DNA of 64,000 bases, from NCBI RefSeq assembly GCF_008728855.1, contig NZ_CP042906.1, positions 3,408,001 through 3,472,000 on the forward strand, written 5' to 3'. Under the pieces are notes generated by a model, which made no database searches, was not told where the DNA came from, and saw only the letters and a program-made list of their open reading frames with translations. The stretch is from Hypericibacter terrae. GTDB lineage: Bacteria; Pseudomonadota; Alphaproteobacteria; Dongiales; Dongiaceae. How positions within the stretch are numbered: position 1 is the stretch's first letter; each line of letters starts with the position of its first letter. The translations under genes and the position numbers were made by a program. This document shows positions 1,631 to 59,643 of this stretch, in pieces.

Positions 1631-3153
1631 GTCGGAACGCCACCCTCCTCCTTGCGCTTGGCGACGAAGGCTTCGAGCGCTTCCGTGATCGCCGGGTCGA
1701 GCGGCGGCGGCTGGAATTCCGCCAGCGCCTGCTTCCAGATCGCGTTGGCCCGCTGCTCGGCCGTCTGCGCACCCGCGAGACGCCAGCTCTCGTAGTTGCG
1801 CCAGTCGGAGAGGATCGGCGAATAGAACGCGGTCTCGTAGCGCGCCATCGTATGGGCCGTGCCGAAGAAATGACCGCCCGGGCCGACATCGGTCATGGCC
1901 TCGAGGCCCAGCGTGTCGTCGGTGACCTCGAGCGGCTGCAGGAATTCGCCCATCATCTGCAGCATCTCCACGTCGAGGATGAACTTCTCGAACGAGGCGA
2001 CCAGTCCGCCCTCCATCCATCCGGCGCCATGGAGCATCATATTGACGCCGCCCATCACGGCACCCCAGATCGACATCTCGGACTCGTAGGCGGCTTGCGC
2101 GTCCACGGCATTGGCGGCGCAGGCGTTCGAGGAGCGATAGGGGAATCCGTAGCGGCGCGCGAGCTGGCCGCCGGCCATCGCGGCGCGGGCATATTCCGGC
2201 GTGCCGAAGGCCGGCGCGCCGGACTTCATATCGACGTTCGAGGTGAAGCCGCCATACATGCAAGGCACGCCCGGCGCCACCAGCTGGATCATCGTGATCC
2301 CGGCCAGAGCCTCGGCATTCTGCTGCGCCAAGGCACCGGCGATGGTCACGGGCGCCATGGCGCCCGACAGGGTGAAAGGCGTGAGCACCACCGGCTGGCC
2401 GTGGCGCGCCATCTCCATCAGGCCCTGGAGCATCGGCCCGTCGAGGCGCAGCGGCGAATTCGAGTTCACGATCGAAAACAGGCTGGGCTCGCGCTTGAGT
2501 TGTTCCTTGCCGATGCCGCGCGCGATGCAGATCATCTCGACCGCATCGGAGATGCGATGCTTGCCCAGGGAATAGGGATGCCAGAGCTTGTCGGTGAGCG
2601 TGATCGCCGCCAGATGCGCATCGAGATGGCGGGTCGCCGGCGGACGATCGGCGGGTTCGACCGGATAGCCGCCGGTGAACTGCACGATGTTGTAGGTCTG
2701 CACCAGCTTCAGCAGCTCGCAATAGTCCTGGAAATTCCCGGGCCGGCGGCCGCGATCCATGTCGCTGACATTGGGCGCGCTGGCGACCGAGCCGAAATTC
2801 ACATGGTTGCCGCCGAAGGTCAGGTTGTGCTCCGGATTGCGCGCGTGAAGCATCACCTCGCGCGGCACCTTGGCGATCGATTCCAGCACCAGCCCGCGGT
2901 CGAACCGCACGCGCTGCGAGCCGGATTCGATCTTGGCGCCGGCCGCCTTCAGGATCGAGAGCGCCTCCGCATCGAGGAACTCGATGCCGATCTCCTCGAG
3001 GATCTTGAGCGACGCCTCGTGGATCTTCTCGAGCTGCTCGGGACGCAGGACCTCGATCGGCTTGTAGACATTCCGGTAGTGGCGCCAGGGTAGTTGCTTG
3101 AGGCCGCCCACCACGCGACGTTCGCGGCGGCGTCCTTGCTGGTCACGCGACAT
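1627..3153 (-). CDS. MttB/MtgB-family methyltransferase (non-pyrrolysine), copy 1
   Basis: 508 aa, full length for the trimethylamine methyltransferase MttB superfamily (COG5598). The family signature regions are visible: an N-terminal LRPEQLEKIHEASLKILEEIGIEF stretch, central FTLSGAMAPVTIAGALAQQNAE and a C-terminal DVGPGGHFFGTAHTMARYE. There is no in-frame amber codon, so it is not a pyrrolysine enzyme. Characterised non-pyrrolysine members demethylate quaternary amines such as glycine betaine, passing methyl to a corrinoid protein. No corrinoid protein or corrinoid:THF methyltransferase gene is seen in the window, so the acceptor is unknown. It is divergent from the HAL-family gene at 3334, 180 bp away, suggesting shared control. 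Substrate cannot be read from sequence. Confidence 0.85.
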   Translation of the reverse strand: MSRDQQGRRRERRVVGGLKQLPWRHYRNVYKPIEVLRPEQLEKIHEASLKILEEIGIEFLDAEALSILKAAGAKIESGSQRVRFDRGLVLESIAKVPREVMLHARNPEHNLTFGGNHVNFGSVASAPNVSDMDRGRRPGNFQDYCELLKLVQTYNIVQFTGGYPVEPADRPPATRHLDAHLAAITLTDKLWHPYSLGKHRISDAVEMICIARGIGKEQLKREPSLFSIVNSNSPLRLDGPMLQGLMEMARHGQPVVLTPFTLSGAMAPVTIAGALAQQNAEALAGITMIQLVAPGVPCMYGGFTSNVDMKSGAPAFGTPEYARAAMAGGQLARRYGFPYRSSNACAANAVDAQAAYESEMSIWGAVMGGVNMMLHGAGWMEGGLVASFEKFILDVEMLQMMGEFLQPLEVTDDTLGLEAMTDVGPGGHFFGTAHTMARYETAFYSPILSDWRNYESWRLAGAQTAEQRANAIWKQALAEFQPPPLDPAITEALEAFVAKRKEEGGVPT

Positions 3154-31556: not shown

Positions 31557-32285
31557 CTAACGGCTTCGATCCGCATGCAGGAAGGCCCGCATATGGAACC
31601 CGGCCTGTGCCGGTTCGGAGCGCCATTCGGCGCCGACCGGACAGGCCCGCCGCGCGCGGCAGCCCGCCTCCAGGCAATCTTGCCCCGCAGGTCCTGCGAT
31701 GTGGTTAAGGCAGGCCGGGACATCGTACCGGACGCCGCCCTCGGCCGGCTCGAACGCCCCGACCGGGCAGGCGGTCAGGCAGGGCTTCTCGGCGCAGACC
31801 TCGCAGGGATGGGTGGCCCGGGCGGGCGGCGCCAGCGAGCGCGGCTCGGCAAACAGGAGCGCCGCGCGATAGGCATGCCAGAGCCCGAATTCGGGATGGA
31901 TCAGCAGGCCGAGGGGCGACGGGAACACCGGCTCGGCCCATTGCGCCCAGCGCTGGAACGGCCAGGCCGGCCGGATTTCAAAGGGATAGAGCGCGGCAGC
32001 CTCGAACTCCGCGGCCACGTCCTCGACCACCCGGCGGGTCCAGCGGTTGAGGGGATGGGGGCTGCCGTCCCGCGCTTCGGGCGCCTGGCTGAAAGCCCGC
32101 CACAGGGCCGGCCCGGCATTCCCGACCAGCATCAGGAGCCGCGCCGGCCGGCCGTCGGGCAATGCCGGCAGCCCGTCCTCCTCCGCCGGCTGGAAGCCGC
32201 CCCGGAGGATCAGGCCGTGGACCGACAACCCTTCAGCTAAGCTCTTGGCCCAATTAGGGCTCTTGGAAATGCGGGGGTCGCTCAT
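31557..32285 (-). CDS. 4Fe-4S ferredoxin-like protein
   Basis: 242 aa. A cluster motif CEVCAEKPCLTACPVGAF (C-x2-C-x4-C-x3-C-P) at about residues 160-177 is followed by a second cysteine group, ACLNHIAGPAGQDCLEAGCRARRACPVG. The N-terminal 150 residues resemble the non-catalytic part of cobalamin-reductase or QueG-like proteins, including LLMLVGNAGPALWRAF. It may transfer electrons in the cytosol. Neighbours are an amidotransferase (same strand) and a divergent HD-domain gene. Confidence 0.78.
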   Translation of the reverse strand: MSDPRISKSPNWAKSLAEGLSVHGLILRGGFQPAEEDGLPALPDGRPARLLMLVGNAGPALWRAFSQAPEARDGSPHPLNRWTRRVVEDVAAEFEAAALYPFEIRPAWPFQRWAQWAEPVFPSPLGLLIHPEFGLWHAYRAALLFAEPRSLAPPARATHPCEVCAEKPCLTACPVGAFEPAEGGVRYDVPACLNHIAGPAGQDCLEAGCRARRACPVGAEWRSEPAQAGFHMRAFLHADRSR

Positions 32286-32360: not shown

Positions 32361-32927
32361 ATGATGGAAGAGACGGTCGACTTCATCCGGATGGAAAACG
32401 GCACCTTTGAGGAATATCAGCTCCTCGACCGCCGGTTTCAGAAACATTCCCAGCACCTTCCGGACGAATTGCTGTCGCAGCTGAAGCGTCTGGGCGGCGA
32501 CAAGCTCGGCTACAAGATCGACCGCTATGAGCATTCGCTCCAGACCGCCACGCGCGCCTTCCGCGCCGGCGAGGACGAGGAAGTGGTCGTGATTGCCCTC
32601 CTCCACGATATCGGCGACATCATGGCCCCGGAGAACCATTCCGATCTCGCCGCCGCGATCCTCCAGCCCTACATCTCCAAGGACAATCACTGGCTGGTCA
32701 AGCATCACGGCATCTTCCAGGGCTACTACTTCTTCCATCATGTGGGCGGCGACCGCAACGCGCGCGAACAATATCGCGGCCACCCGCTGTTCGAGCGTAC
32801 GGCCGCGTGGTGCCACAACTACGACCAGAACTCGTTCGATCCGGAATACGAGAATATGCCGATCGACGCCTTCGAGCCGATGGTACGGCGCGTGATCGGG
32901 CGCAAGCCGTGGGCGTTCGTGGTTTAA
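32361..32927 (+). CDS. HD-domain protein, PhnZ/TmpB-like diiron oxygenase candidate
   Basis: 188 aa from the first of two adjacent ATGs (32361 and 32364), after AGGAGAGGG. Metal ligands of an HD fold are visible: His58 (YEHSLQTATRA), His82-Asp83 (ALLHDIGD), His93 (ENHSDLAAAI), His115/116 (VKHHGIF) and Asp155 (HNYDQNSFD). EHSLQ followed by an ALLHD segment about 24 residues later matches the mixed-valent diiron oxygenases PhnZ and TmpB. The lid residues before His58 (GYKIDRY) differ from the PhnZ GE motif, as I recall it, so the substrate may not be a phosphonate. Ordinary HD phosphohydrolase remains possible. No operon partner. Confidence 0.68.
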   Translation: MMEETVDFIRMENGTFEEYQLLDRRFQKHSQHLPDELLSQLKRLGGDKLGYKIDRYEHSLQTATRAFRAGEDEEVVVIALLHDIGDIMAPENHSDLAAAILQPYISKDNHWLVKHHGIFQGYYFFHHVGGDRNAREQYRGHPLFERTAAWCHNYDQNSFDPEYENMPIDAFEPMVRRVIGRKPWAFVV

Positions 32928-33121: not shown

Positions 33122-33730
33122 CTAATCCTCATTCACTGATGGCTGCGCGCGGAACTCTGCCGCGTTCTCGATCAAGAGCCGCGCCACGTTCAAGGCACGC
33201 GGCCGGTCGACGGGAAATTTCAGAACCTCGTCTTCGATGCGAATCAGATGATCCGCAATCTCCTGCTCTGTCGCTTCGACACGCAAAAGCTCGCGAAGTT
33301 GCGGAACATGTTCGTCATAGAAGCCTTTGCCCGCCGGCAATCTCACGATTCCTACGGGATCCCATGCCGTGCTGAGGATCCGGGATATCCGTCGCGTAAG
33401 CTCGGGATTCTCGAAAACCGCGACGATCCTCTGGCCGGCGGCAACGCTGGTCTCGCGATAATGTTCCACGAAGCGCTCCACCCTTCGCTCGAGCTCGGCT
33501 CTGAAGGCGGGGGCAGCCTCACGAAGAACGCCGAGGTGCAGATCGTCAGAGTCGGAGTTGGCCGCGACGAAGACGGTGAGCGGCTCCTCGATCCGTGGAT
33601 CGTCATTGCCACTCAGAAGAACGACCATCGTGAGACTCGCGCCCCAAATGGTCTCGCTGCCCTCTGCCAGGCGCTCGACATTCTCTACCACCAGATTGCG
33701 GGTTGCCTGATCAAAAGACTTGTACCGCAC
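33122..33730 (-). CDS. hypothetical protein
   Basis: 202 aa from GTG at 33730, with AGAAGG about ten bases upstream. It is soluble with no signal peptide. The segment AWDPVGIVRLPAGKGFYDEHVP followed by EIADHLIRIEDEVL resembles a short family of bacterial proteins with a WDPxGV motif and unknown function. It starts 29 bases after the dimethylglycine-dehydrogenase-type gene ends, on the same strand. G+C is visibly lower than in its neighbours. Confidence 0.65.
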   Translation of the reverse strand: MRYKSFDQATRNLVVENVERLAEGSETIWGASLTMVVLLSGNDDPRIEEPLTVFVAANSDSDDLHLGVLREAAPAFRAELERRVERFVEHYRETSVAAGQRIVAVFENPELTRRISRILSTAWDPVGIVRLPAGKGFYDEHVPQLRELLRVEATEQEIADHLIRIEDEVLKFPVDRPRALNVARLLIENAAEFRAQPSVNED

Positions 33731-33759: not shown

Positions 33760-36180
33760 CTACCCCCGCAGCCGCTCGTTCTTCGGGTCCCAGGCGGGTT
33801 GCGGCACGATTCTCGCCTTGCGGCGCTCGCCCATCATCAGGATCTCGAAGGCCTGGCCGTCCTGGGCCAGCTTGGGATCGACATAGGCGAAGGTCAGCGA
33901 CTTGTCGATCGCATGGCCATAGGCGCCGCCCGTGGTGATGCCGACGACCTTGTCGCCCTGATAGATCGGCTCGTTGCCGTAGCAGTCGGAGTTCCCCGCA
34001 TCGACCGTCATATAGACGAGCTTGATTCGGGCCCCCTGCTGCTTCGAGCGCAGGGTCGCGGCCTTGCCGATGAAGTCCTTGTCGAGATTGGTGAAGCGCT
34101 CCATGTCGCCCTCGATGAGCGTGACCTCGTTGGTCAGCTCCGAGCCCCAGCCGCGATAGGCCTTCTCCATGCGCAGCGAGTTCATCGCATAGGTGCCGAA
34201 GAGCTGGATCCCATGGGCGCCGCCCGCCTTCATCACCGCGTCGAACACGATCGGCAGCGACTTCATCGGCACATGCAGTTCCCAGCCCAGCTCGCCGACA
34301 TAGTTCACGCGCAGAGCCCGCACGCCCTTCACACCCGCGACCTCGATTTCCTTGCCCGTCAGCCAGCGGAACGAAGCGTTGGTGAGGTCGGTCTTGGTGC
34401 AGGCGGCCAGCACGTCGCGCGCCTTTGGCCCCGCCAGTACCAGAACGCCGAAATCGTCGGTGATGTCGGTGATGGTGACGCGCTCGTTCGGCCTCAGGCG
34501 CCAGCTCAGCTGGTCCATGTCGTAGAGCTGGGCGGCTGCGGCCGAGAGCACATAAAAATGATCGGGTGCCAGCCGCGTGACGGTTATCTCGCTCTCGATG
34601 AAGCCGTTCTCGTTGAGAAGATGGCCCAGCATGATGCCGCCATCCTTGGCCGGGATCTTGTTGGCGCAGATCCGCTCCAGGAAGGCAGGGGCGTCGGCAC
34701 CCTTCACGTCGAACTTGGCGAAGGTCGAGAGATCCATCAGCCCGACGCGCTCGCGCACGGCCTTGCATTCCGCCTTGACCGCGTCCCACCAGTTGGAGCG
34801 CTTGAAGGAATAGGTCTCGCCCTTCCCGCTCTTGTCGTACCAGCGCGCGCGCTCCCAGCCGAAGATCTGGCTGAACTGCGCGCCCGCGGCCGCGAGCCTG
34901 TCATAGATCGTCGACTTGCGCAGGCCGCGTCCGACCTGATGCTGCTCGGCCGGCTTGTAGCAGTAATACATGTGATGATAGTCGGCGATGGAGACCTCGG
35001 TGGTGTAGTCCTTGGTCGCCCAGTTGCCGAACCGGCGCGGATCGAACTCACGCATATTGATCTCAGCCTGGCCATGCACCATCCATTGCGCCAGATATTT
35101 GCCGGCGCCGCCGCCCTGGCAGATGCCGATCGAAGCGCCGCAATGCATCCAGTAGTTCTTCGGCCCATGCGCGGGGCCGGAGAGATAGACGCCGTCGGGC
35201 GTGTGGGTGATGGCGCCGGAGATGATGGATTTGAGGCCGGCTTCGCCGAAGAGCGGGAAGCGCTCGGCCGCCTTCTCGAGCCAGGGCGTGAGACGATCGA
35301 GCTCGGGGGCGATCAGCTCGCTCTCGAAATCCCAGGCCGGCGGCTTGCCGTCCCAGCAGACATGCGCCGTGGCGGTCTCGTAGGGACCGACCAGCACGCC
35401 GTTGGTCTCCTCACGCAAGTAAGCGTGCGAATAGGGATCGCGCACCACCGGCAATTCCTTCTCGAGCTGGACCAGCTCCTTGAGCGGCTCGGTGATCATG
35501 TAGTGATGCAGCATGTTGGCGATCGGCACGTTATGGCCGGTCCAGGAGCCGACCACGTCGCAATAAGAACCGGCCGAGTTCACCACATGCTCGCAGGTGA
35601 TGTTGCCCTTGTCGGTGATGACCTGCCATTCGCCGGTCTTGAGCAGCTTGATGTCAGTCACGAGCGTGCGGCGATAGATCTCCGCGCCGAGCTTGCGGGC
35701 CCCCGCCGCCATCGCATTGGTGATGTCGGCCGGCGCCACATGGCCGTCGGTCACGGTCAGGAAGGCGGCCTTGATGCCGTCGGTGTTGAGGAAGGGGTGA
35801 TGTTCCTTGATCTCGTCCGGCCCGATGATATGGGCCTCGTAGTTGGCGAGCTTGGAGAGGCCATAGACCTGCTTCAGCCAGTTCACCTCCTCGTCGGTGG
35901 TGGCGATGCGCAAGCCGCCGCAGCCATGCCAGCTCACCGCCTGCCCCGTCAGCTTCTCGAGCTGGGGGTAGAGCTGGGTGCCATAGACATGCACCTTGGT
36001 CATGTTGAGCGAGCTGTTGAAATGCGGGCATTGGCCCGCCGCATGCCAGGTCGAGCCCGAGGTCAGCTCGCCCTTCTCCACCAGCACGACGTCGGACCAG
36101 CCTTCGAGCGCCAGGTGGTAGAGCAGCCCCACCCCCATCACGCCACCGCCGACGACCACCACTCTCGCATGCGACTTCAT
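33760..36180 (-). CDS. FAD-dependent dimethylglycine/sarcosine dehydrogenase type (DAO + GcvT)
   Basis: 806 aa. N-terminal FAD-binding VVVVGGGVMGVGLLYHL, then GSTWHAAGQ with His46, the position of covalent FAD attachment in dimethylglycine dehydrogenases. Residues about 420-800 are GcvT-like folate-binding and aminomethyltransferase domains (GLMDLSTFAKFDVKG, VLAGPKARDVL, RVNYVGELGWELHVP). It oxidatively demethylates dimethylglycine (or sarcosine) and hands the one-carbon unit to tetrahydrofolate. Bmt at 54202 and SoxBDAG at 37569 supply the steps before and after. It lies 151 bp downstream of the GbdR-like gene on the same strand. Confidence 0.87.
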   Translation of the reverse strand: MKSHARVVVVGGGVMGVGLLYHLALEGWSDVVLVEKGELTSGSTWHAAGQCPHFNSSLNMTKVHVYGTQLYPQLEKLTGQAVSWHGCGGLRIATTDEEVNWLKQVYGLSKLANYEAHIIGPDEIKEHHPFLNTDGIKAAFLTVTDGHVAPADITNAMAAGARKLGAEIYRRTLVTDIKLLKTGEWQVITDKGNITCEHVVNSAGSYCDVVGSWTGHNVPIANMLHHYMITEPLKELVQLEKELPVVRDPYSHAYLREETNGVLVGPYETATAHVCWDGKPPAWDFESELIAPELDRLTPWLEKAAERFPLFGEAGLKSIISGAITHTPDGVYLSGPAHGPKNYWMHCGASIGICQGGGAGKYLAQWMVHGQAEINMREFDPRRFGNWATKDYTTEVSIADYHHMYYCYKPAEQHQVGRGLRKSTIYDRLAAAGAQFSQIFGWERARWYDKSGKGETYSFKRSNWWDAVKAECKAVRERVGLMDLSTFAKFDVKGADAPAFLERICANKIPAKDGGIMLGHLLNENGFIESEITVTRLAPDHFYVLSAAAAQLYDMDQLSWRLRPNERVTITDITDDFGVLVLAGPKARDVLAACTKTDLTNASFRWLTGKEIEVAGVKGVRALRVNYVGELGWELHVPMKSLPIVFDAVMKAGGAHGIQLFGTYAMNSLRMEKAYRGWGSELTNEVTLIEGDMERFTNLDKDFIGKAATLRSKQQGARIKLVYMTVDAGNSDCYGNEPIYQGDKVVGITTGGAYGHAIDKSLTFAYVDPKLAQDGQAFEILMMGERRKARIVPQPAWDPKNERLRG

Positions 36181-36331: not shown

Positions 36332-37357
36332 TCAGGCGGCGCCCTTGATCTTGCCCGGGCCCGCGGCCCGCGCGGCGGCCGCGGCGGCAACCGCCGGCCC
36401 GCCCCGCTCGCGCCGCGGCGTGCGGCCGAAGAAGTCGCGGTAGCATTTGGAGAAATGCGAGGCCGAGACGAAGCCGCAGGCCAGCGCCACGTCGATCACC
36501 GACATGTTGGTCTGGAGCAGCAGCAGCCGCGCGCGATTGAGACGCAGCTCGACGTAATAGCGGGCCGGCGAACGGTTCAGATATTTGCGGAAGAGGCGCT
36601 CGAGCTGGCGGTTGGAAAGGCCCGCCGCGTCGGCCAGGTCGTGGCGCTCCAGCGGCTCCTCAAGATGCTCTTCCATCAGCTTGATCACGGAGAGCAGCTT
36701 GGGATGGCGCACGCCGAGGCGGGCCGGCAGCGCCATGCGCTGATGGTCGTGGCGGTCGCGGATGCGCTCATGGATGAACTGGTCGGAGACCGAGGCCGCC
36801 AGCTCGTGGCCATGCTGCTCGGCGATCAAATTCAGCATGAGATCGAGCGAGGCAGTGCCGCCGGAGCAGGTGAAGCGGTTGCGATCGATTTCGAACAGCT
36901 CGCTCGTCACCTCGATCTGCGGGAAATCCTCGGCGAAGCCCGCCATGTTCTCCCAATGGATGGTGCAGCGATAGCCGTCCATGAGCCCGGCGCGGGCGAG
37001 GATATGCGTGCCGGTGCAGAGCGCGCCGATATCGGCCCCCTGCCGCTCGCAGCGGCGCAAGGCCGCGAACAGGCCGCGATCGTTATAGGTGTGGGCGTCG
37101 ATGCCGCTGCAGAGGATCACGGTGTGGAAATTGACCGCCTGATCCGCATTGCCCGAGGGATTGAGCTCGATTCCGTTGCTGGCCGCGACCGGCTTGCCGT
37201 CGGCGGAGAACAGATGCCAGCGATAGAGCTGCTTTCCGCTCGCGCGGTTCGCCAGCCGGAGCGGCTCGACGGCCGCCGTGAAGGCGATCATCGAGAAGTT
37301 GGGCACCAGCAGGAAAGCGATCTGCTGCGGCAGTTCGCGGGGAGGATCACCGAACAT
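36332..37357 (-). CDS. GlxA/GbdR-like AraC-family regulator
   Basis: 341 aa from the ATG at 37357 (MFGDPPRELPQQ); a GTG at 37399 is an alternative. N-terminal DJ-1/PfpI-like domain (residues about 10-190: IAFLLVPNFSMIAFTAAVEPLRLAN, ALCTGTHILARAGLMDG) and a C-terminal AraC helix-turn-helix pair (about 215-315: LADAAGLSNRQLERLFRKYL, CGFVSASHFSKCYRDFFG). This is the architecture of GbdR, which activates glycine betaine, dimethylglycine and sarcosine catabolism in Pseudomonas. It is divergent from soxB and upstream of the dimethylglycine-dehydrogenase gene, which makes that role likely. Confidence 0.88.
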   Translation of the reverse strand: MFGDPPRELPQQIAFLLVPNFSMIAFTAAVEPLRLANRASGKQLYRWHLFSADGKPVAASNGIELNPSGNADQAVNFHTVILCSGIDAHTYNDRGLFAALRRCERQGADIGALCTGTHILARAGLMDGYRCTIHWENMAGFAEDFPQIEVTSELFEIDRNRFTCSGGTASLDLMLNLIAEQHGHELAASVSDQFIHERIRDRHDHQRMALPARLGVRHPKLLSVIKLMEEHLEEPLERHDLADAAGLSNRQLERLFRKYLNRSPARYYVELRLNRARLLLLQTNMSVIDVALACGFVSASHFSKCYRDFFGRTPRRERGGPAVAAAAAARAAGPGKIKGAA

Positions 37358-37568: not shown

Positions 37569-38828
37569 GTGGCCTTGAGACCCAAATATTCGATTATCGG
37601 CCTGATCCGGAACGCTCTTTCCTACCACCAGGATTGGCAGACGGCCTGGCGCAGCCCGGATCCCAAGCCCGAATACGACGTCATCATCGTCGGCGGCGGC
37701 GGCCATGGCCTCGCCACGGCCTACTACCTCGCCAAGGAACATGGCATCACCAATGTGGCGGTGCTCGAAAAGGGCTGGCTCGGCGGCGGCAATACGGGCC
37801 GCAACACCACGATCGTGCGCTCCAACTATCTCTGGGACGAGAGCGCCCATCTCTACGAGCATTCGCTGAAGCTGTGGGAGGGCCTCTCCCAGGATCTGAA
37901 TTTCAACGTCATGTTCTCGCAGCGCGGGCTGATGAGCCTGGCGCACAACCTGGGCGACCTGCGCGAGATCAACCGGCGCGTCAACGCGATCCGCCTCAAC
38001 GGCATCGATTCCGAGTTCCTCGATGTCGAGCAGTGCAAGGCCTATTGCCCGATCCTCAACACCGATCCCAAGTCGCGCTATCCGGTGCTGGGCGCCTCGC
38101 TGCAGCGCCGCGGCGGCACGGCGCGCCATGACGCGGTCGCCTGGGGCCTTGCCCGCGCGGCTGACGCGCGCGGCGTCGACATCATCCAGAACTGCGAGGT
38201 CACGGGCTTCCGCATCGAGAACGGCCGGGTCAAGGGCGTGGAGACCACGCGCGGCTATATCGGCGCGAAGAAAGTCGGCTGCGTCGTCGCCGGCCATGCC
38301 AGCGTCGTCGCCGCCATGGCGGGCTTCCGCCTGCCGATCGAAAGCCACCCCCTGCAGGCCATGGTGTCCGAGCCGATCAAGCCGATCCTCGACACGGTCG
38401 TGATGTCGAACGCGGTCCATGTCTATGTCAGCCAGTCCGACAAGGGCGAGCTGGTGCTGGGTGCCGGCATCGACGCCTTCAATTCCTATGCCCAGCGCGG
38501 CAGCCCCTTCATCCTCGAGCATCAGATGAACGCGCTCTGCGAGCTCTTCCCCATCTTCAGCCGCCTCAAGATGATGCGGAGCTGGGGCGGCATCGTCGAC
38601 ACCTGCCCGGATGCGAGCCCGATCATCGGCCGCACCCCGGTCGAGGGCATGTATTTCAACTGCGGCTGGGGTACGGGCGGCTTCAAGGCCACGCCGGGCT
38701 CGGGCTGGGTCTTCGCCGACACCATCGCCAACGAACGGCCGCACAAGCTCGCCGAGCCCTTCGCCCTCGAGCGCTTCGTCTCCGGCTATCTGATCGACGA
38801 GCATGGCGCCGCCGGCGTCGCTCACTGA
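37569..38828 (+). CDS. soxB: sarcosine oxidase beta subunit SoxB
   Basis: 419 aa from GTG at 37569, chosen because GAGGAGG lies upstream and because the family begins with the [17 protein letters not shown]-type sequence. FAD-binding [43 protein letters not shown], and [13 protein letters not shown] with His187 at the position of covalent FMN attachment are all present. It is the catalytic flavin subunit of heterotetrameric sarcosine oxidase. First gene of soxBDAG, 13 bases before soxD. Confidence 0.95.
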
Positions 38829-38841
38829 AGGACCAGGCCCG

Positions 38842-39141
38842 ATGCTGCTGATCCCCTGCCCCTATTGCGGCGCCCGCGACGAGACCGAGTTCTCCTACGG
38901 CCATGAGGCGCATATCGCGCGGCCGGAGAATCCCGACGCGCTCAGCGACGCCGAGTTCGCGAACTATCTCTTCATGCGAAAGAATCCGAAGGGCGTGCAT
39001 TACGAACGCTGGATGCATGCGCGCGGCTGCCGGCGCTGGTTCAACGTTGCGCGCCACACCGTGTCGCACCGGATTCTCGCCGTCTACAAGATGGGCGAAC
39101 CGCCGCCGAGCGATCTCGGCGCTGGGAGCGCGCAGCCATGA
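38842..39141 (+). CDS. soxD: sarcosine oxidase delta subunit SoxD
   Basis: 99 aa from the ATG at 38842 (AAGGA upstream). Zinc-binding residues IPCPYCGARDETEFSYG and HARGCRRWFNVARHT follow the SoxD pattern, with C-x2-C, a His-rich middle and a third cysteine. It is a structural Zn subunit of the heterotetramer. Its stop overlaps the soxA start (ATGA). Confidence 0.95.
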   Translation: MLLIPCPYCGARDETEFSYGHEAHIARPENPDALSDAEFANYLFMRKNPKGVHYERWMHARGCRRWFNVARHTVSHRILAVYKMGEPPPSDLGAGSAQP

Positions 39142-42100
39142 GCCGCCAGAGCCACCGCCATCCCGAGCGCGGCCGCATCGATCGCGACCTGCCGTTGCGC
39201 TTCACCTTCAACAACCGCACCTATTACGGCTACAAGGGCGACACGCTGGCCTCGGCGCTCATCGCCAACGGCGTGGCGCTGGTCGGCCGCAGCTTCAAAT
39301 ATCACCGCCCGCGCGGGATCATGACCGCCGGCTCCGAGGAGCCGAACGCGCTGGTGCAGCTGGGCGAAGGAGCCCGCACCGAGCCGAACATCCGCGCGCC
39401 GCAGGTCGAGCTCTTCGACGGGCTGGTCGCGGCGAGCCAGAATTGCTGGCCCTCGATCGACCTCGACATCGGCGAGAGCAACAGCCTGCTCTCGCGCATC
39501 TTCCCGGCCGGCTTCTACTACAAGACCTTCATGTGGCCGAAGAGCGCCTGGATGAAGTACGAGTACTTCATCCGCAAGGCCGCGGGCCTGGGCGTCGGCC
39601 CGAGCGAGCCCGATCCCGATCGCTACGACAAGCAGTTCACCCATTGCGACGTCCTGGTCGTGGGCGGCGGTCCCGCCGGCCTGGCCGCGGCGCTGGCCGC
39701 CGGCCGCAGCGGAGCCCGCGTGATTCTGGCCGACGAGCAATCGGAGTTCGGCGGCCAGTTGCTCTCGAGCCCGTCCGAAGCCATCGACGGCAAGCCCGCT
39801 TCCGAATGGGTCGCGAGTGCCGCAGCCGAGCTGGCGGCGATGCCGGAGGTCAAGCTTCTCACCCGCACCACCGCCTTCGGCTATTACGACTACAACTACG
39901 TCGCCCTGGTCGAGCGCGTGACCGACCATCTCGGGCCGGGTGCCAAAGGCCCGCGCCAGCGCCTCTGGCGCGTCCGTGCCAAGCAGGTCGTGCTGGCGGC
40001 CGGCGCCATCGAACGGCCACTGGTCTTCGCCGACAATGACCGTCCCGGCACCATGCTGGCCTCGGCCGCCCGCTCCTATCTGAACCGCTTCGGCGCGACG
40101 CCGGGGCACAAGACCGTGCTCTTCACCAACAATGACGGCGCCTATCGCACCGCCCTCGATCTGGTCGAGGCGGGTGCCACGGTCGCCGCCATTGTCGATC
40201 TGCGCGCCGACCCCAAGGGCGAGCTGGTCCAGGCCGCGCGCGCCAAGGGCATCGAGTTGCTGGCGGGCCATGCGATCACCGGTACCGCCGGCCATAAGCG
40301 CATCAAGGGCGTCAAGGTCATGGCGCTCAACGCGGCGGGCGATGCCGTCGGGGGCGGTGCGCGCCAGATCGATTGCGACGCGCTGCTGGTGTCCGGCGGC
40401 TGGAACCCGACGGTGCATCTCTATTCGCAGTCGCGCGGCTCGCTCAAATTCGACGAGGCGATCTCCTCCTTCGTGCCGGATCGTCCGCATGAAGCGACGT
40501 TGACGGCCGGCGCCATCAATGCGGCTTTCCGCACCTCCGATTGCCTGGCGCAGGGCTTCGCCGCCGGCGGCCAGGCCGCCAAAGCGGCCGGTTTCGACGA
40601 GAATGCCGGGAGCGCCCCGAGCCTGACCTCGCCCGAGCCGGCGGAGGAACCGCTGCGGCCGATCTGGCTGGTCCCGTCCGACAAGCCGCTGGGCCAAGGC
40701 GGCAAGCATTTCGTCGACCACCAGAACGACGTGACCGCGGCCGACGTGGCGCTCGCCAACCGAGAAGGCTACCGCTCGGTCGAGCATCTCAAGCGCTACA
40801 CGACCATGGGCATGGGCACCGACCAGGGCAAGACCAGCAACGTCAATGCGCTGGCGATCCTGGCCGATCTGCGCGACGCGCAGATCCCCGAGGTCGGCTT
40901 TACCACCTTCCGCGCGCCCTATACGCCGGTCACCATCGGCGCCTTCGTGGGCCATGAGAATGGCGATTTGTTCGACCCGATCCGGCGCACGCCCATGCAT
41001 GGCTGGCACGAGAAGGCCGGCGCGCTGTTCGAGAATGTCGGGCAGTGGAAGCGGCCCTGGTACTACCCGAAGCATGGCGAGACCCTGCATGATGCGGTCA
41101 ATCGCGAGGTCAAGGCGACCCGCACCAGCGTCGGCATCGTCGATGCCTCGACCCTTGGCAAGATCGACATTCAGGGGCCCGATACCGCCAAGCTGCTCAA
41201 CATGATCTACACCAACGCCTGGACCAAGCTCGAGGTCGGGCGCTGCCGCTATGGCCTCATGTGCGGCGAGGACGGCATGGTGTTCGACGACGGCGTCACC
41301 ACGCGGCTTGCCGAAGGCCATTTCCTGATGAGCACCACCACGGGCAATGCGGCGCGCGTGCTGGCCTGGCTCGAGGAGTGGCTGCAGACCGAATGGCCGG
41401 GCATGAAGGTGTTCTGCACCTCCGTCACCGAGCAATGGGCGACCGTCGGCGTCAACGGGCCGATGGCGCGCCGGCTGCTGTCGGAGCTCACCACCGACAT
41501 TCCGCTCGACGACGCGGCCTTCCCCTTCATGTCCTACAAGGAAGGGCATGTCGCCGGCATCCCGGCGCGGGTCATGCGCATCAGCTTCACCGGCGAGCTC
41601 ACCTACGAGGTCAACGTGCCCTCGAGCTACGGCCTGGCCTTGTGGGAAGCGCTGATGGCGGCCGGCGAGAAATACGGCATCACGCCCTACGGCACCGAGG
41701 CGATGCATGTGCTGCGCGCCGAGAAGGGCTTCATCATCGTGGGCCAGGAGACCGACGGCACCCAGACGCCGCAGGATCTCGGCATGGAGTGGGCGATCGC
41801 GAAGTCGAAGCCGGACTTCCTCGGCAAGCGTGCGCACAAGCGTGCCGACACGGCGCGGCCCGATCGCAAGCATCTGGTCGGGCTCCTGACCGAGAATCCG
41901 AGCGAGCTCATCCCCGAGGGCGGCCAGGTCGTGGCCGAGCTCGAGCGCAAGCCGCCAATGGCCATGATCGGCCATGTCACCTCGAGCTATTACAGCCCGA
42001 ATGTCGGCCGCTCGATCGCCATGGCCGTGCTCAAGAACGGCCGCAACCGCATGGGCGACACGGTCTTCATCCCGCTGGTCGATCGCACGATCCGCGCCAA

Positions 42101-42152
42101 GGTGACCGAAGCCCGCTTCTTCGACATCGAAGGGACCCGCCTCAATGGTTGA
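39138..42152 (+). CDS. soxA: sarcosine oxidase alpha subunit SoxA
   Basis: 1004 aa, full length. An N-terminal ferredoxin-like segment (FTFNNRTYYGYKGDTLASALIANG), a FAD/NAD-binding region (DVLVVGGGPAGLAAALAAGRSGA), a second dinucleotide region, and a C-terminal GcvT domain (VGIVDASTLGKIDIQGPDTA, MRISFTGELTYEVNVPSSY). It binds NAD and tetrahydrofolate and traps the formaldehyde equivalent from sarcosine as methylene-THF. It overlaps soxG by eight bases. Confidence 0.95.
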   Translation: MSRQSHRHPERGRIDRDLPLRFTFNNRTYYGYKGDTLASALIANGVALVGRSFKYHRPRGIMTAGSEEPNALVQLGEGARTEPNIRAPQVELFDGLVAASQNCWPSIDLDIGESNSLLSRIFPAGFYYKTFMWPKSAWMKYEYFIRKAAGLGVGPSEPDPDRYDKQFTHCDVLVVGGGPAGLAAALAAGRSGARVILADEQSEFGGQLLSSPSEAIDGKPASEWVASAAAELAAMPEVKLLTRTTAFGYYDYNYVALVERVTDHLGPGAKGPRQRLWRVRAKQVVLAAGAIERPLVFADNDRPGTMLASAARSYLNRFGATPGHKTVLFTNNDGAYRTALDLVEAGATVAAIVDLRADPKGELVQAARAKGIELLAGHAITGTAGHKRIKGVKVMALNAAGDAVGGGARQIDCDALLVSGGWNPTVHLYSQSRGSLKFDEAISSFVPDRPHEATLTAGAINAAFRTSDCLAQGFAAGGQAAKAAGFDENAGSAPSLTSPEPAEEPLRPIWLVPSDKPLGQGGKHFVDHQNDVTAADVALANREGYRSVEHLKRYTTMGMGTDQGKTSNVNALAILADLRDAQIPEVGFTTFRAPYTPVTIGAFVGHENGDLFDPIRRTPMHGWHEKAGALFENVGQWKRPWYYPKHGETLHDAVNREVKATRTSVGIVDASTLGKIDIQGPDTAKLLNMIYTNAWTKLEVGRCRYGLMCGEDGMVFDDGVTTRLAEGHFLMSTTTGNAARVLAWLEEWLQTEWPGMKVFCTSVTEQWATVGVNGPMARRLLSELTTDIPLDDAAFPFMSYKEGHVAGIPARVMRISFTGELTYEVNVPSSYGLALWEALMAAGEKYGITPYGTEAMHVLRAEKGFIIVGQETDGTQTPQDLGMEWAIAKSKPDFLGKRAHKRADTARPDRKHLVGLLTENPSELIPEGGQVVAELERKPPMAMIGHVTSSYYSPNVGRSIAMAVLKNGRNRMGDTVFIPLVDRTIRAKVTEARFFDIEGTRLNG

Positions 42153-42765
42153 GCCCTATCTGCGACGTTCGCCGCTGGCCCATCTGGGCTTGCGCGCCCG
42201 CGCCGCCTCGCAGACCGGCGTTCTGCAAGAGGCCGAAATCGTCCTGGCCGAGCGCCCGCATCGCTGCCAGATCAATCTGCGTGGCAATGTGGTCGACCCG
42301 GCCTTCGCCGACGCCGTGCGCCAGGCGACCGGCCTCGCCTTGCCACAGGCGCCCAACAGCGTCGCCCGCGCCGGCGAACTGCGGGCCCTCTGGCTCGGGC
42401 CCAACGAATGGCTCGTCATCGGACCGGCGGGCCGCGAGGCCGATCTCTCCCGCAGCCTGCGCACCAGTCTCACCGGCCAGCATGCGGCCGTGACCGACGT
42501 CAGCGAGGCGCGGAGCTGCATCCTCGTGGCCGGCCCCAAGGCACGCGAGCTCCTGGCGCGCGGGATCAGCCTCGACCTTCACCCCCGCGTGTTCGGGCCG
42601 GGACGCTGCGCCCAGACCGGTCTTGCCGGCGCCAACATCTTCCTCGAGCAGATCGACGACCGGCCGGGCTACGAGATCTCGGTGCTGAACAGCTTCACCG
42701 ATCATCTCTGGCGCTGGCTGGAACGGGCCGGCGAAGACTACCGGATCGCGGTGGCGTCCGACTGA
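42145..42765 (+). CDS. soxG: sarcosine oxidase gamma subunit SoxG
   Basis: 206 aa. Short GcvT-like fold with LWLGPNEWLVIGPAG, VTDVSEARSCILVAGPKARELLARG and a C-terminal NSFTDHLWRWLERAG, as in SoxG. It completes the heterotetramer. Its stop TGA shares bases with the start of the next small secreted-protein gene (TGATG), so that gene is translationally coupled to the sox operon. Confidence 0.93.
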   Translation: MVEPYLRRSPLAHLGLRARAASQTGVLQEAEIVLAERPHRCQINLRGNVVDPAFADAVRQATGLALPQAPNSVARAGELRALWLGPNEWLVIGPAGREADLSRSLRTSLTGQHAAVTDVSEARSCILVAGPKARELLARGISLDLHPRVFGPGRCAQTGLAGANIFLEQIDDRPGYEISVLNSFTDHLWRWLERAGEDYRIAVASD

Positions 42766-54201: not shown

Positions 54202-55251
54202 ATGTCAGACCTTTTGCAGAGACTCCTCGCAGAGCGCCCTCATCTCTTGGCCGATGGCGCCACGGGCACCAACCTGTTCGACGCCGGCCTCGCCACGGGC
54301 GAGGCGCCGGAGATGTGGAACTTCGAGCATCCCGAGAAGATCGAGGCGCTGCATCAGAGCATGGTCGATGCGGGCGCCGACATCATCCTCACCAACACCT
54401 TCGGCGGCAGCCGCTATCGCCTCAAGCTGCACAAGGCGCAGGACCGCGTCGAGGAGATCAACCGCCGTGCGGTCGAAATCGCGCGCAAGGTGGCGGATCG
54501 CGCCGGCCGGCCCGTGGTGGTCGCGGGCTCGATCGGCCCGACCGGCGAGCTGTTCGAGCCGCTGGGACCGCTGACCCATGCCGAAGGCGTCGCCGCCTTC
54601 GCCGAGCAGGCCCGCGCGCTGGCTGCGGCCGGCGCCGACGTGCTCTGGATCGAAACGATGTCCTCGAAGGACGAGGTGCGCGCCGCGGCCGAAGGGGCCG
54701 CCAGCACCGGCATGCCCTATGTCTGCACCCTCTCCTTCGACACCAACGGCCGCACCATGATGGGGCTGATGCCGGGCGAGCATGCGCAGCTCTGCCACGA
54801 ACTCAATCCGCGGCCGATCGGCTATGGCGCCAATTGCGGCGTGGGTGCCGCGGAGCTGATCGCGGCCGTGGTCAACATGTCCGGCTCGGCCGAGGCCGGC
54901 GATGTCATCGTCGCCAAGGGCAATTGCGGCATCCCCTATTATCACGAGGGCAAGATCCGCTATGACGGCACGCCCGAGCTGATGGCGGAATATGCGCGCA
55001 TGGCGCGCGATGCCGGCGCGCGCATCATCGGCGGCTGCTGCGGCACCTCGCCGACGCATCTCAAGGCGATGCGCGAGGCGCTCGATCATTACGTGCCGGG
55101 GGCGAAGCCGACGCTCGAGGAGATCGTCGGGCGGCTCGGCCAGATCTCGCTCGGCGCCAACCAGCAGGCGAGCGGCATCCAGGCCCCGAGCAACACCCGC
55201 GAAAGCCGCCGCCGCCGCCGCGAGAGCGCGTCGGGCGACGGCGCCTTCTAG
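54202..55251 (+). CDS. bmt: betaine-homocysteine S-methyltransferase
   Basis: 349 aa. Barrel-type homocysteine methyltransferase with LLADGATGTNLFDAGL, DIILTNTFGGSRYRL, GANCGVGAAEL and GGCCGTSPTHLKAMREAL, whose cysteines bind catalytic zinc. The size and the GEAPEMWNFEHPEKI segment fit the Bmt proteins of rhizobia, which transfer a methyl group from glycine betaine to homocysteine, giving dimethylglycine and methionine. Products feed the dehydrogenase at 33760 and SoxBDAG. A C-terminal Arg-rich tail (RESRRRRRESASG) is present. Confidence 0.88.
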   Translation: MSDLLQRLLAERPHLLADGATGTNLFDAGLATGEAPEMWNFEHPEKIEALHQSMVDAGADIILTNTFGGSRYRLKLHKAQDRVEEINRRAVEIARKVADRAGRPVVVAGSIGPTGELFEPLGPLTHAEGVAAFAEQARALAAAGADVLWIETMSSKDEVRAAAEGAASTGMPYVCTLSFDTNGRTMMGLMPGEHAQLCHELNPRPIGYGANCGVGAAELIAAVVNMSGSAEAGDVIVAKGNCGIPYYHEGKIRYDGTPELMAEYARMARDAGARIIGGCCGTSPTHLKAMREALDHYVPGAKPTLEEIVGRLGQISLGANQQASGIQAPSNTRESRRRRRESASGDGAF

Positions 55252-57673: not shown

Positions 57674-58387
57674 CTAAGCGAGCAACGCGTCCAATTCCGC
57701 AATGGAATCCAGCACGCGGTCGGCGTGATCCGCCAGAACCTCGCGCGGACTGACGCCGGTGAGAACGCCGATCGCCAGACCGGCACCGGCCGCGCGTGCC
57801 ATATGCATGTCATGTGGCGTGTCGCCGACGACCGCGATGTCCCCTGCCGGAATCTCGATCGCCCGGCAAAACGCGTGGACCATGCCGGGGCCGGGCTTGT
57901 GGCCGTGGCCCGAATCGTAACCGCAGGAAAAATCGACGAGCCCCACCAGCTCGAACGTCTCGATCGCGGCGCGCGCCGCGGCGTGGCTGTCCATGGTGGC
58001 GACGCCGATCTTGAGGCCCTTGGCCTTCAGCCGGCCGAACAGCGCCGCCAGATCGGTAACCGGCGTCGGCCGCATCTCCATGCTCTTGGCGAAGTTCGCA
58101 TCGAAGCGGCGGGTGAGCCGCGCCACGGTCCAGTCGCCGCCGGCGACCCGCGCCCAGATCTCGGCGATCTCGGCGTTGGTGCCCGCGGCCAGGGACGAGT
58201 GGGGGTCGAGCCTTTTCGTGGCGGCGTCATAGCCGCTCTCGACCAGGAGCTTCAGCGCCAGCGCCTTGTCGCCACCCGCGACCTCGTTCGCGGTGTCGAG
58301 ATAGAGCGGCATCCAGGTGGCGTTGAAGTCGAACAGCGTGCCGTCCTTGTCGAACAGCACCGCGCGCACCGGCGGGAGAAGGGTCAC
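57674..58387 (-). CDS. HAD-superfamily hydrolase coupled to choV
   Basis: 237 aa from GTG at 58387, which overlaps the choV stop (GTGA). Motif I is VLFDKDGTLFDF, motif II is in GVATMDSHAAA, and motif III/IV is VVGDTPHDMHMARAAG, so it is an active phosphatase-type HAD of the phosphoglycolate-phosphatase class. No signal peptide. Coupling to choXWV makes a phosphorylated choline or related compound a possible substrate, but this is inference from position. Confidence 0.87.
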   Translation of the reverse strand: MTLLPPVRAVLFDKDGTLFDFNATWMPLYLDTANEVAGGDKALALKLLVESGYDAATKRLDPHSSLAAGTNAEIAEIWARVAGGDWTVARLTRRFDANFAKSMEMRPTPVTDLAALFGRLKAKGLKIGVATMDSHAAARAAIETFELVGLVDFSCGYDSGHGHKPGPGMVHAFCRAIEIPAGDIAVVGDTPHDMHMARAAGAGLAIGVLTGVSPREVLADHADRVLDSIAELDALLA

Positions 58388-59643
58388 GTCACTCCCACCA
58401 TGGCGACCGGATCGGAACGGCCGAGATCGGTTTGCTTCAGCATCCCGCGATAGAGCTCCTGCTCGCCCACGACGCCGACCAGCTCGCCCTCGGGGCCCAA
58501 CAACACCAGCGGCCGCAAGGTCACCTGACGCACCATCACGGCGGCGCGCATGGGCGTCCGGGCGTTGCCCGTCACCATCACATCGCCGGCCATCCGGGCC
58601 AAGTCGAGGTCGGTACTGTAGGGCACGAATCTTCCGGGAGCGCCCGCCACCTTGAGCTCGGCCGGACGGCCCGCGACATCGAGTCGGACGACGCAGCGTC
58701 CGGCCCGATCGAGCTGGACGATAGAAGGATCAGACGGGTCGCGCTTGAGCTCGCTCAGCGGCCGCATAAGGGTCCCCCCCTTCAGGACCGTCAGCGGATT
58801 CATCGAAGCCACGAACTGGCGCACATAGTCGTTGACCGGATTGAGGATGATGTCCTCCGGCACGCCGAACTGTACTACCTTTCCGGCCTCCATGATGGCG
58901 ATGCGGCTGCCGATCTTGAGCGCTTCGTCCAGATCGTGGCTCACGAACACGATGGTCTTGCGCAAGCTCCGCTGCAGCTCGATGAGTTCGTCCTGGAGAT
59001 GCTCGCGGATCAGCGGATCGAGAGCAGAGAACGGCTCGTCCATCAGAAGGACGTCGGCCTCGGTCGCGAAGGCACGCGCCAGGCCGACGCGTTGCTGCAT
59101 GCCGCCCGAAAGCTCGTGCGGAAACTTGTCGGCGAACTTGTCGAGCCGAACCAGCTTGATCTTCTCGTCCACGATCCGGTCGCGCTCGGCCTTCTCGAGC
59201 CCCCGAATGTCGAGGCCGAACCCGACATTGTCGCGCACTGTGAGCCAGGGCATCAGCGCAAACTGCTGGAACACCATAGAGATGCGGTTGCGGCGCATCT
59301 GGCGCAGCTTGTTCTCGTCGCAGCTCGTAACGTCGATCTCGCCTTGTCCGTCATGCACCCAGATGTGCCCCCGCGAGACACGGTTGAGACCATTGATGCA
59401 ACGCAGGAGCGACGATTTCCCAGAGCCCGAGAGCCCCATCAGCACCAGAATCTCGCCCTCGTTCACGAAGACAGAGGCGTCGTGCACGGCGACCAGGCTG
59501 CCGGTCCGGTCGAGGATGGCGTCGCGCCCCTCGCCCTGATCCAGCATCGTCAGGGCATCAGGAGCGCGCTCGCCGAAGATCACGTCGACATGCTCGAAGC
59601 GGACGGCGCTGGCGCCGGAGAGAGTCGAATTTTTCTCAGTCAT
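58384..59643 (-). CDS. choV: choline/glycine betaine ABC transporter ATP-binding protein ChoV/ProV
   Basis: 419 aa. Walker A GLSGSGKSSLLRCING, signature LSGGMQQRVGLARAFA, Walker B DVLLMDEPFSALDP and the switch His in VFVSHDLDEALKIG. A C-terminal region (about 285-419) with ARTPMRAAVMVRQVTLRPLVL and GELVGVVGEQELYRGML is CBS-like, as in ProV and ChoV. It energises uptake of choline or betaine. It lies four bases after choW. Confidence 0.92.
   Translation of the reverse strand: MTEKNSTLSGASAVRFEHVDVIFGERAPDALTMLDQGEGRDAILDRTGSLVAVHDASVFVNEGEILVLMGLSGSGKSSLLRCINGLNRVSRGHIWVHDGQGEIDVTSCDENKLRQMRRNRISMVFQQFALMPWLTVRDNVGFGLDIRGLEKAERDRIVDEKIKLVRLDKFADKFPHELSGGMQQRVGLARAFATEADVLLMDEPFSALDPLIREHLQDELIELQRSLRKTIVFVSHDLDEALKIGSRIAIMEAGKVVQFGVPEDIILNPVNDYVRQFVASMNPLTVLKGGTLMRPLSELKRDPSDPSIVQLDRAGRCVVRLDVAGRPAELKVAGAPGRFVPYSTDLDLARMAGDVMVTGNARTPMRAAVMVRQVTLRPLVLLGPEGELVGVVGEQELYRGMLKQTDLGRSDPVAMVGVT

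Follow-up and report, generated by a model that had tools for sequence, protein, structure and literature searches.

The oxygenases known to be built on the HD fold are few. Their metal ligands follow the order H...HD...H...H...D (PMC8177086), and every HD oxygenase covered in the available parts of PMC8177086 and PMC10574752 cleaves a C-P bond, with the exception of MIOX, a diiron enzyme that cleaves a C-C bond instead. PhnZ (PDB 4n71), the (R)-2-amino-1-hydroxyethylphosphonate oxygenase, and TmpB (PDB 6npa), the (R)-1-hydroxy-2-trimethylaminoethylphosphonate oxygenase, share a YxxE lid as a characteristic feature (PMC8177086). The same review also describes HD proteins of other chemistry, namely the diphosphatase YqeK, in which two extra histidines lie between HD and D and two metals are bound; the hydratase Ddi2, which has the HD fold, is mononuclear, and is devoid of the last Asp; and the phosphohydrolases, of which an Arg preceding the first His is a trait.

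P0001 is encoded in a 64,000-nucleotide stretch of Hypericibacter terrae DNA (contig NZ_CP042906.1, positions 3,408,001 to 3,472,000), the whole of which is termed the window. The original prediction had described it as an HD-domain protein with the ligand pattern of PhnZ/TmpB diiron oxygenases beside betaine catabolism genes, and its ORF is indeed open and translates as stated (Table 1). Sequence comparison and a structural model together make it fairly likely that P0001 is an HD diiron oxygenase of a separate, apparently uncharacterised family, sister to PhnZ/TmpB, whose substrate would be hydroxylated, probably a quaternary amine and probably not a phosphonate; from such comparisons we infer its iron, oxygenase activity, substrate class, reaction, and product. 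A search of the open-access literature, outside which subscription journals mostly fall, returned no paper on the family, and a term search of PMC3691474, which concerns a sarcosine-oxidase island, found no mention of HD or phosphohydrolase.

Table 1. Features of the window referred to in the text (position 1 is the first letter of the window).
Feature	Position	Strand	Basis or remark
P0001, HD-domain protein, proposed diiron oxygenase (predicted)	32361..32927	+	188 aa; ORF, Pfam, NCBIfam, AF2
G50-Y51-K52-I53-D54-R55	32508..32525	+	aligned with end of PhnZ YxxE lid
H58, presumed metal ligand	32532..32534	+	kept in 138/138
H82-D83, presumed ligands	32604..32609	+	kept in 138/138
H93, presumed ligand	32637..32639	+	kept in 138/138; aligns with TmpB His
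H116, presumed ligand	32706..32708	+	138/138; aligns with His of TmpB HVAAK
Q120, position of HVxAK Lys	32718..32720	+	Q in 136/138; alignment
D155, presumed ligand	32823..32825	+	kept in 138/138
FAD oxidoreductase with GcvT domains	33760..36180	-	Pfam DAO, FAO_M, GCV_T, GCV_T_C
GbdR-like AraC regulator	36332..37357	-	422.9 bits, below NCBIfam cut-off 480
soxB, sarcosine oxidase beta	37569..38828	+	730 bits, cut-off 529.45
soxD, sarcosine oxidase delta	38842..39141	+	Pfam SoxD 2.2e-38
soxA, sarcosine oxidase alpha	39195..42152	+	1490.9 bits, cut-off 1164
soxG, sarcosine oxidase gamma	42145..42765	+	Pfam SoxG 2.3e-25
Betaine-homocysteine S-methyltransferase (BHMT), wider setting	54202..55251	+	507.2 bits, cut-off 338
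Choline ABC transporter ATP-binding protein, wider setting	58384..59643	-	517.6 bits, cut-off 483.75

Predicted fold and metal ligands

The Pfam scan assigned P0001 to the HD family (E=3e-08). Among PDB sequences its best matches were PhnZ (7.7e-06, over residues 44-95) and TmpB (1.7e-04), with further rows for cytochrome b5 and glutaredoxin (E 0.29-0.86) being regarded as chance, and a profile search of the same sequences returned only PhnZ and TmpB at E<=0.01. An AlphaFold2 model built from 15 sequences (pLDDT 90.6, pTM 0.85) gave ten Foldseek rows against the PDB at E<=0.001, all of them PhnZ or TmpB, followed by MIOX at 0.067. Superposition with VIA-align 2 ranked PhnZ first (Z 17.6; 3.0 Å over 153 residues), then TmpB (16.8) and MIOX (11.7), bearing in mind that helical proteins may reach a Z of about 13-14 by common arrangement, a level which PhnZ and TmpB exceed and MIOX does not; the remaining listed rows stood at Z <=8.1, with YqeK at 6.5 and SAMHD1 at 5.8. 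Structure prediction and comparison had been proposed as a check on the original prediction, and they place the predicted fold nearest to PhnZ/TmpB, then MIOX, with the HD phosphohydrolases lower. MIOX itself differs from P0001 in sequence, as shown by a Pfam MIOX (PF05153) score of 13.7 bits, below the gathering cut-off of 25, and an identity of 13% over the structural alignment.

Conservation was assessed over 138 family genes from 135 loci gathered for this analysis. The ligand residues named from the sequence, H58, H82-D83, H93, and D155, are invariant, and the earlier choice of “His115 or 116” resolves to H116, position 115 being His in 80/138 members. All six ligands are also retained throughout a second set of 42 genome-locus genes and seven viral-contig genes. 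Further near-invariant positions (n=138) are R135 (131), F159 (134), and D160 (135). As for the six-ligand pattern expected of HD oxygenases, its order is borne out and its spacing is not identical, for D83 and H93 are 10 residues apart against 21 in PhnZ, and H116 and D155 39 apart (38-40 across the family) against 57.

Taken by themselves, the ligands are no proof of an oxygenase, since YqeK has its two extra histidines as well and R55, three residues ahead of the first ligand His and an Arg in 123/138 members, matches the phosphohydrolase Arg. The main rival reading, which is nonetheless unlikely, is a dinuclear YqeK-like HD phosphohydrolase acting on a nucleotide or other phosphoester, its location among betaine genes being incidental or regulatory. 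It would suit the phage-contig members of the family, which lie near replication-like or structural-like genes (by eye), and one plasmid record that annotates a family member as “phosphohydrolase”. Against it stand the far closer fit of the predicted fold to PhnZ/TmpB than to YqeK and the absence of a YqeK model among the NCBIfam matches listed for P0001 at E<=1. R55 is also kept in 18 of 20 hydroxylase-paired relatives, with Ile in both IPNS-paired members. It is the fold comparison, together with the repeated hydroxylase pairing of relatives described below, that leads us to prefer an oxygenase over a hydrolase. A lyase or hydratase of HD type, or a metal site without catalysis, serving amine metabolism, is very improbable; Ddi2 provides a precedent for a hydratase on this fold, although its mononuclear site lacks the last Asp, which is invariant here.

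Departures from PhnZ and TmpB

Despite the likeness in fold, P0001 falls far short of the NCBIfam cut-offs for the described phosphonate enzymes, scoring 38.6 bits on Phn-HD (TIGR03276; cut-off 214.6), 33.0 on TmpB (NF049941; 300), and 20.6 on PhnZ1 (NF052439; 300). It does share with TmpB the C-terminal FxPMVxR motif and a betaine setting in addition to the ligand order. The YxxE lid is lacking: PhnZ Y24 and E27 fall on K48 and Y51 in the alignment, where the family has Y, F, or W at the latter position in 115/138 members and E in four, so that the lid is unlike that of PhnZ, as had been noticed from the sequence, and action on a new substrate is possible.

The motif HVxAK is common to PhnZ, TmpB, and the TmpB-like protein encoded elsewhere in the same genome; in the family its Lys is replaced by Gln (Table 1). 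Residues K108, S126, and R158 of PhnZ contact the phosphonate, and the motif Lys is phosphonate-binding. At the place of R158, no R occurs among the six commonest letters, which account for 132/138 members, and E, H, or A mostly occupies the position three ahead of the final Asp. Compared with PhnZ, the loop leading up to this Asp has lost 18 residues and the LSxAS..QGGP motif that the same three proteins share is absent from the family, although hhalign sets the family's xGxDRN opposite QGGP, so that the family may have a shortened equivalent of that loop. Because these conserved PhnZ/TmpB residues are replaced, the group cleaved from the substrate is probably not a phosphonate.

The genome has a TmpA/TmpB-like pair of its own, on the same contig about 25-26 kb past the end of the window (L082, 9566-11259, minus strand). 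The TmpB-like gene scores 224.6 bits on Phn-HD, above the cut-off, and 190.4 on TmpB, under 300, with its product aligning with TmpB across nearly the full length (3.6e-43); its neighbour reaches 439.1 bits on TmpA (cut-off 400). By eye, the surrounding ORFs include a DMGDH-type oxidase, an aldehyde dehydrogenase, and a PhnA-like phosphonoacetate hydrolase. The cut-offs, the lid, the HVxAK Lys, and the existence of this separate pair rule out a TmpB identity for P0001. Hence, of the original interpretation, the oxygenase ligand order, the predicted fold, the betaine setting, and the non-PhnZ lid all stand, whereas membership of the PhnZ/TmpB family does not.

A diverged phosphonate oxygenase of TmpB type, converting an N-methylated 1-hydroxy-2-aminoethylphosphonate into glycine betaine, dimethylglycine, or sarcosine, is a still less probable alternative than the phosphohydrolase. 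That PhnZ and TmpB are the closest characterised relatives and that the gene lies among betaine genes would both favour it. The replaced residues and shortened loop, together with the better-matching pair in the same genome, argue to the contrary, as does the annotated subset of window genes, among which no phosphonate gene was found.

Betaine setting and hydroxylase partners

The betaine genes reported near the HD gene are recovered (Table 1), comprising the GbdR-like regulator, soxB, soxD, soxA, soxG, the GCV_T-domain FAD oxidase, for which “dimethylglycine-dehydrogenase-like” (DMGDH-like) is a label given here from domain order, the betaine-homocysteine methyltransferase, and the choline ABC ATPase. 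For the window clade, 17 of 52 loci have soxB no further than 8 kb from the HD gene, and 19 have a regulator of GlxA/GbdR type. An MttB-superfamily methyltransferase is also encoded in the window at 1627-3114 (minus strand); it scores 329.5 bits against the pyrrolysine-type model, short of the cut-off of 525, and its blast cluster is represented at most 8 kb away from the HD gene in 10 of the 52 loci. An ORF at 33122-33730 (minus strand), which separates the HD gene from the DMGDH-like gene, encodes a 202-residue protein that matched neither Pfam nor NCBIfam at E<=0.001. No hydroxylase adjoins the window gene: its upstream neighbour, at 31557-32285 on the minus strand, is divergent, lies 75 bp away, and has a Cys-rich ferredoxin-like motif (CEVCAEKPCLTACPVGAF); at E<=0.001 it, too, matched neither Pfam nor NCBIfam.

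Hydroxylases do adjoin the HD genes of relatives. Neighbouring ORFs were searched with HMMs seeded from genes that flank HD genes, a choice that biases the search towards close-by matches, and a gene was taken as immediately upstream when on the same strand and within 200 bp. A hydroxylase occupied this place in 19/77 cases (nine TauD, four PhyH, four Rieske, and two of IPNS type; five overlap the HD gene by 4 bp), compared with 1/61 immediately downstream, 12/650 otherwise within three genes, and 8/903 further away (Fisher 1.5e-16, with the relatedness of loci ignored). With the HMMs fixed, the pairing was repeated in 42 new loci (4/25 vs 0/94). A 2OG-type gene is immediately upstream in 15/138 relatives; 119/138 genes, those of the window clade included, have no hydroxylase there, some of them standing at a contig end or beside a divergent neighbour. 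Pfam confirmed the hydroxylase types on representatives and added a fatty-acid-hydroxylase partner in one locus (L162) outside the count, and on a Phaeobacter plasmid a gene annotated as “sterol desaturase family” comes after the HD gene.

TauD, PhyH, and the IPNS type are separate families of one 2OG fold, to which the Rieske oxygenases are unrelated. On the starred branches of a quick maximum likelihood tree, supported by SH-aLRT only and with an uncertain root owing to a very long outgroup branch, at least three changes are required for TauD, four for PhyH, two for Rieske, and one for IPNS; L166, whose partner is a PhyH gene, and L164, whose partner is a TauD gene, are sisters at 99. Hydroxylase families swapped ahead of one HD clade are what would be expected from a pathway of hydroxylation followed by cleavage. 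All nine counted TauD pairs and all but one of the four PhyH pairs fall in one clade that excludes the window protein. Of the starred sets that surround the latter and exceed six rows, the smallest has 28 rows, and the only pair in it involves the fatty-acid hydroxylase. As the pairs lie mostly in another clade, function would be transferred to the window gene by family and not through its own neighbour.

The paired TauD proteins, 11 out of 11, scored best on the TmpA model, then on the gamma-butyrobetaine and trimethyllysine dioxygenase models, the TmpA scores being 227-353 bits (cut-off 400) except for that of L246, which at 423 is above cut-off. The gamma-butyrobetaine and trimethyllysine dioxygenase families act on trimethylammonium compounds. 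Such partners would suit trimethylammonium substrates, and also phosphonates; TmpA being a phosphonate enzyme, they count in favour of the diverged TmpB-type oxygenase as well, although the HD gene of L246, whose partner is the most TmpA-like, adjoins carnitine genes. Placement behind a TmpA-like TauD hydroxylase is a further likeness of some P0001 relatives to TmpB, from which the window gene departs. A second BBOX-like TauD in the window's genome (G000:C1:5235390-5236454, L262) was considered as a partner and dropped, its surrounding genes being non-amine by eye and without a link.

The wider settings of relatives are varied. On pF045_1, the order is TauD, HD, choline SBP, choline dehydrogenase, and ALDH, and in L143 a PhyH gene precedes the HD gene, with a GbdR-like regulator 55% identical to that of the window. 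In a Kiloniellaceae locus (L033), a relative of the MTHFR-domain protein of L031, a methyl-THF:corrinoid methyltransferase (369.8 bits, cut-off 259), and a 630-aa ORF precede the HD gene, while L242 contributes MTTB and an FMN oxidoreductase. Carnitine-type genes lie near family members in three lineages, the carnitine dehydrogenase being partial in two of them: six loci of one genus (L239-L241, L243-L245) have the order BKACE-type gene, HD, carnitine dehydrogenase (in L240 at 596.6 bits, above the cut-off of 592); in L246 the TauD-HD pair adjoins a BKACE-type gene, part of a carnitine dehydrogenase, and an SBP of choline type; and in L157 the HD gene is accompanied by a BKACE-type gene and by a fragment of a dehydrogenase. 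“BKACE-type” here denotes matches to models of 3-keto-acid cleavage enzymes, all of which scored under cut-off.

In the SAR86 loci and a related MAG, the class II aldolase loci, and the phage contigs, no amine genes were recognised. Seven loci (L037-L041, L043, L044; SAR86 and one Gammaproteobacteria MAG) have the order FAD-linked oxidase, HD, and an 811-aa protein that appears glycoside-hydrolase-like by eye. A class II aldolase/adducin-type gene adjoins the HD gene in L063, L064, L070, L134, L137, L148, L153, L184, L220, L237, and L090; this recurrent, non-hydroxylase partner, identified by HMM and checked with Pfam for L063, belongs to other clades, and is also the neighbour of the HD gene on a Sphingobium plasmid. 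The phage-like contigs L200-L206 (IMG/VR) carry family members with the six ligands kept, that of L200 lying beside ORFs that by eye are recombination nuclease-like and GroES-like; neither P0001 nor three phage-contig relatives matched PHROGs at E<=0.001.

Proposed chemistry and family range

Under the favoured assignment of P0001 as an HD diiron oxygenase, H58, H82, D83, and D155 would hold one iron and D83, H93, and H116 the other, an allocation carried over from PhnZ to P0001. The substrate would already bear a hydroxyl adjacent to the bond that is cleaved, O2 would bind the second iron, and the resulting ferric superoxo would remove the C-H hydrogen, after which the neighbouring C-X bond would be cut oxidatively to leave a carboxylate; these steps are modelled on the MIOX/PhnZ mechanism described in PMC8177086. 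In some relatives, the adjacent 2OG or Rieske hydroxylase may install the hydroxyl, whereas in the window clade, which has no adjacent hydroxylase, the substrate may be already hydroxylated on arrival or made elsewhere. The product, possibly glycine betaine, dimethylglycine, or sarcosine, would pass to the DMGDH-like enzyme and SoxBDAG under the GbdR-like regulator.

A bolder extension, which we put forward with considerable reserve, would see in the family a large group of HD diiron oxygenases that cleave C-C and not C-P bonds as the second half of two-step routes, following a 2OG or Rieske hydroxylase, with carnitine or 3-hydroxy-trimethyllysine as the substrate of the trimethylammonium branch. 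Carnitine, (CH3)3N+-CH2-CH(OH)-CH2-COO-, may be viewed as the carbon analogue of the TmpB substrate, (CH3)3N+-CH2-CH(OH)-PO3, and its cleavage would give glycine betaine and a two-carbon acid, while that of 3-hydroxy-trimethyllysine would give gamma-butyrobetaine. The suggestion arises from the TmpA/BBOX-like TauD partners and from the carnitine-type genes near members in three lineages. It is weakened because the same clusters hold carnitine dehydrogenase and a BKACE-type enzyme, a competing route. A further weakness is that a cluster of this kind occurs elsewhere in the window's genome with no HD gene of the family beside it; its carnitine dehydrogenase scores 528.5 bits (cut-off 414) and adjoins a BKACE-type gene. 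The presence of these two genes likewise leaves unsupported the idea, considered and set aside, that the HD enzyme replaces the carnitine dehydrogenase route.

A family with oxygenase ligands and without the PhnZ/TmpB lid would widen the chemistry of HD oxygenases and, if the assignment is true, would give a role to genes now labelled “HD domain-containing protein” or “phosphohydrolase”. Searching with P0001 gave a match at E<=0.001 in 32 of 61 related genomes, a few solely via TmpB-like proteins, and a profile of 41 members (A1) at E<=1e-25 found the family in 90/289 genomes drawn from the class and 51/299 drawn from the phylum. Named relatives are Caballeronia, SAR86, SAR92, and Rhodovibrionaceae, plus 15 plasmids. 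Marine phnZ counts vary between studies from <1% to ~20% of expected genomes (PMC10574752), and P0001-like look-alikes, for instance those of SAR86, could inflate such counts where these are loose. One marine study required 50% identity to a reference set (PMC9381506), so that look-alikes would affect its counts only if that set were itself contaminated.

In the first set, 141 sequences were passed to the ORF caller, a simple script by which gene starts are approximate. L082, L084, L085, L185, and L196 gave no family gene (that of L085 is annotated but was missed by the caller) and L083 was left out at 49 bits, so that 135 loci remained. The second set yielded family genes in 42 of 44 new loci (none in L235 and L236) and in seven of eight viral contigs (none in L207). 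L064 and L148 are identical, further near-copies occur in the sets, and six second-set loci represent one genus.

Tandem family copies occur in L150 (3375-4749), L155 (2630-4027), and L145, with a gap of 139 bp between the copies in L150 and of 153 bp in L155; formation of a hetero-oligomer by such copies is possible. In both L150 and L155, the first copy is directly downstream of a Rieske oxygenase gene.
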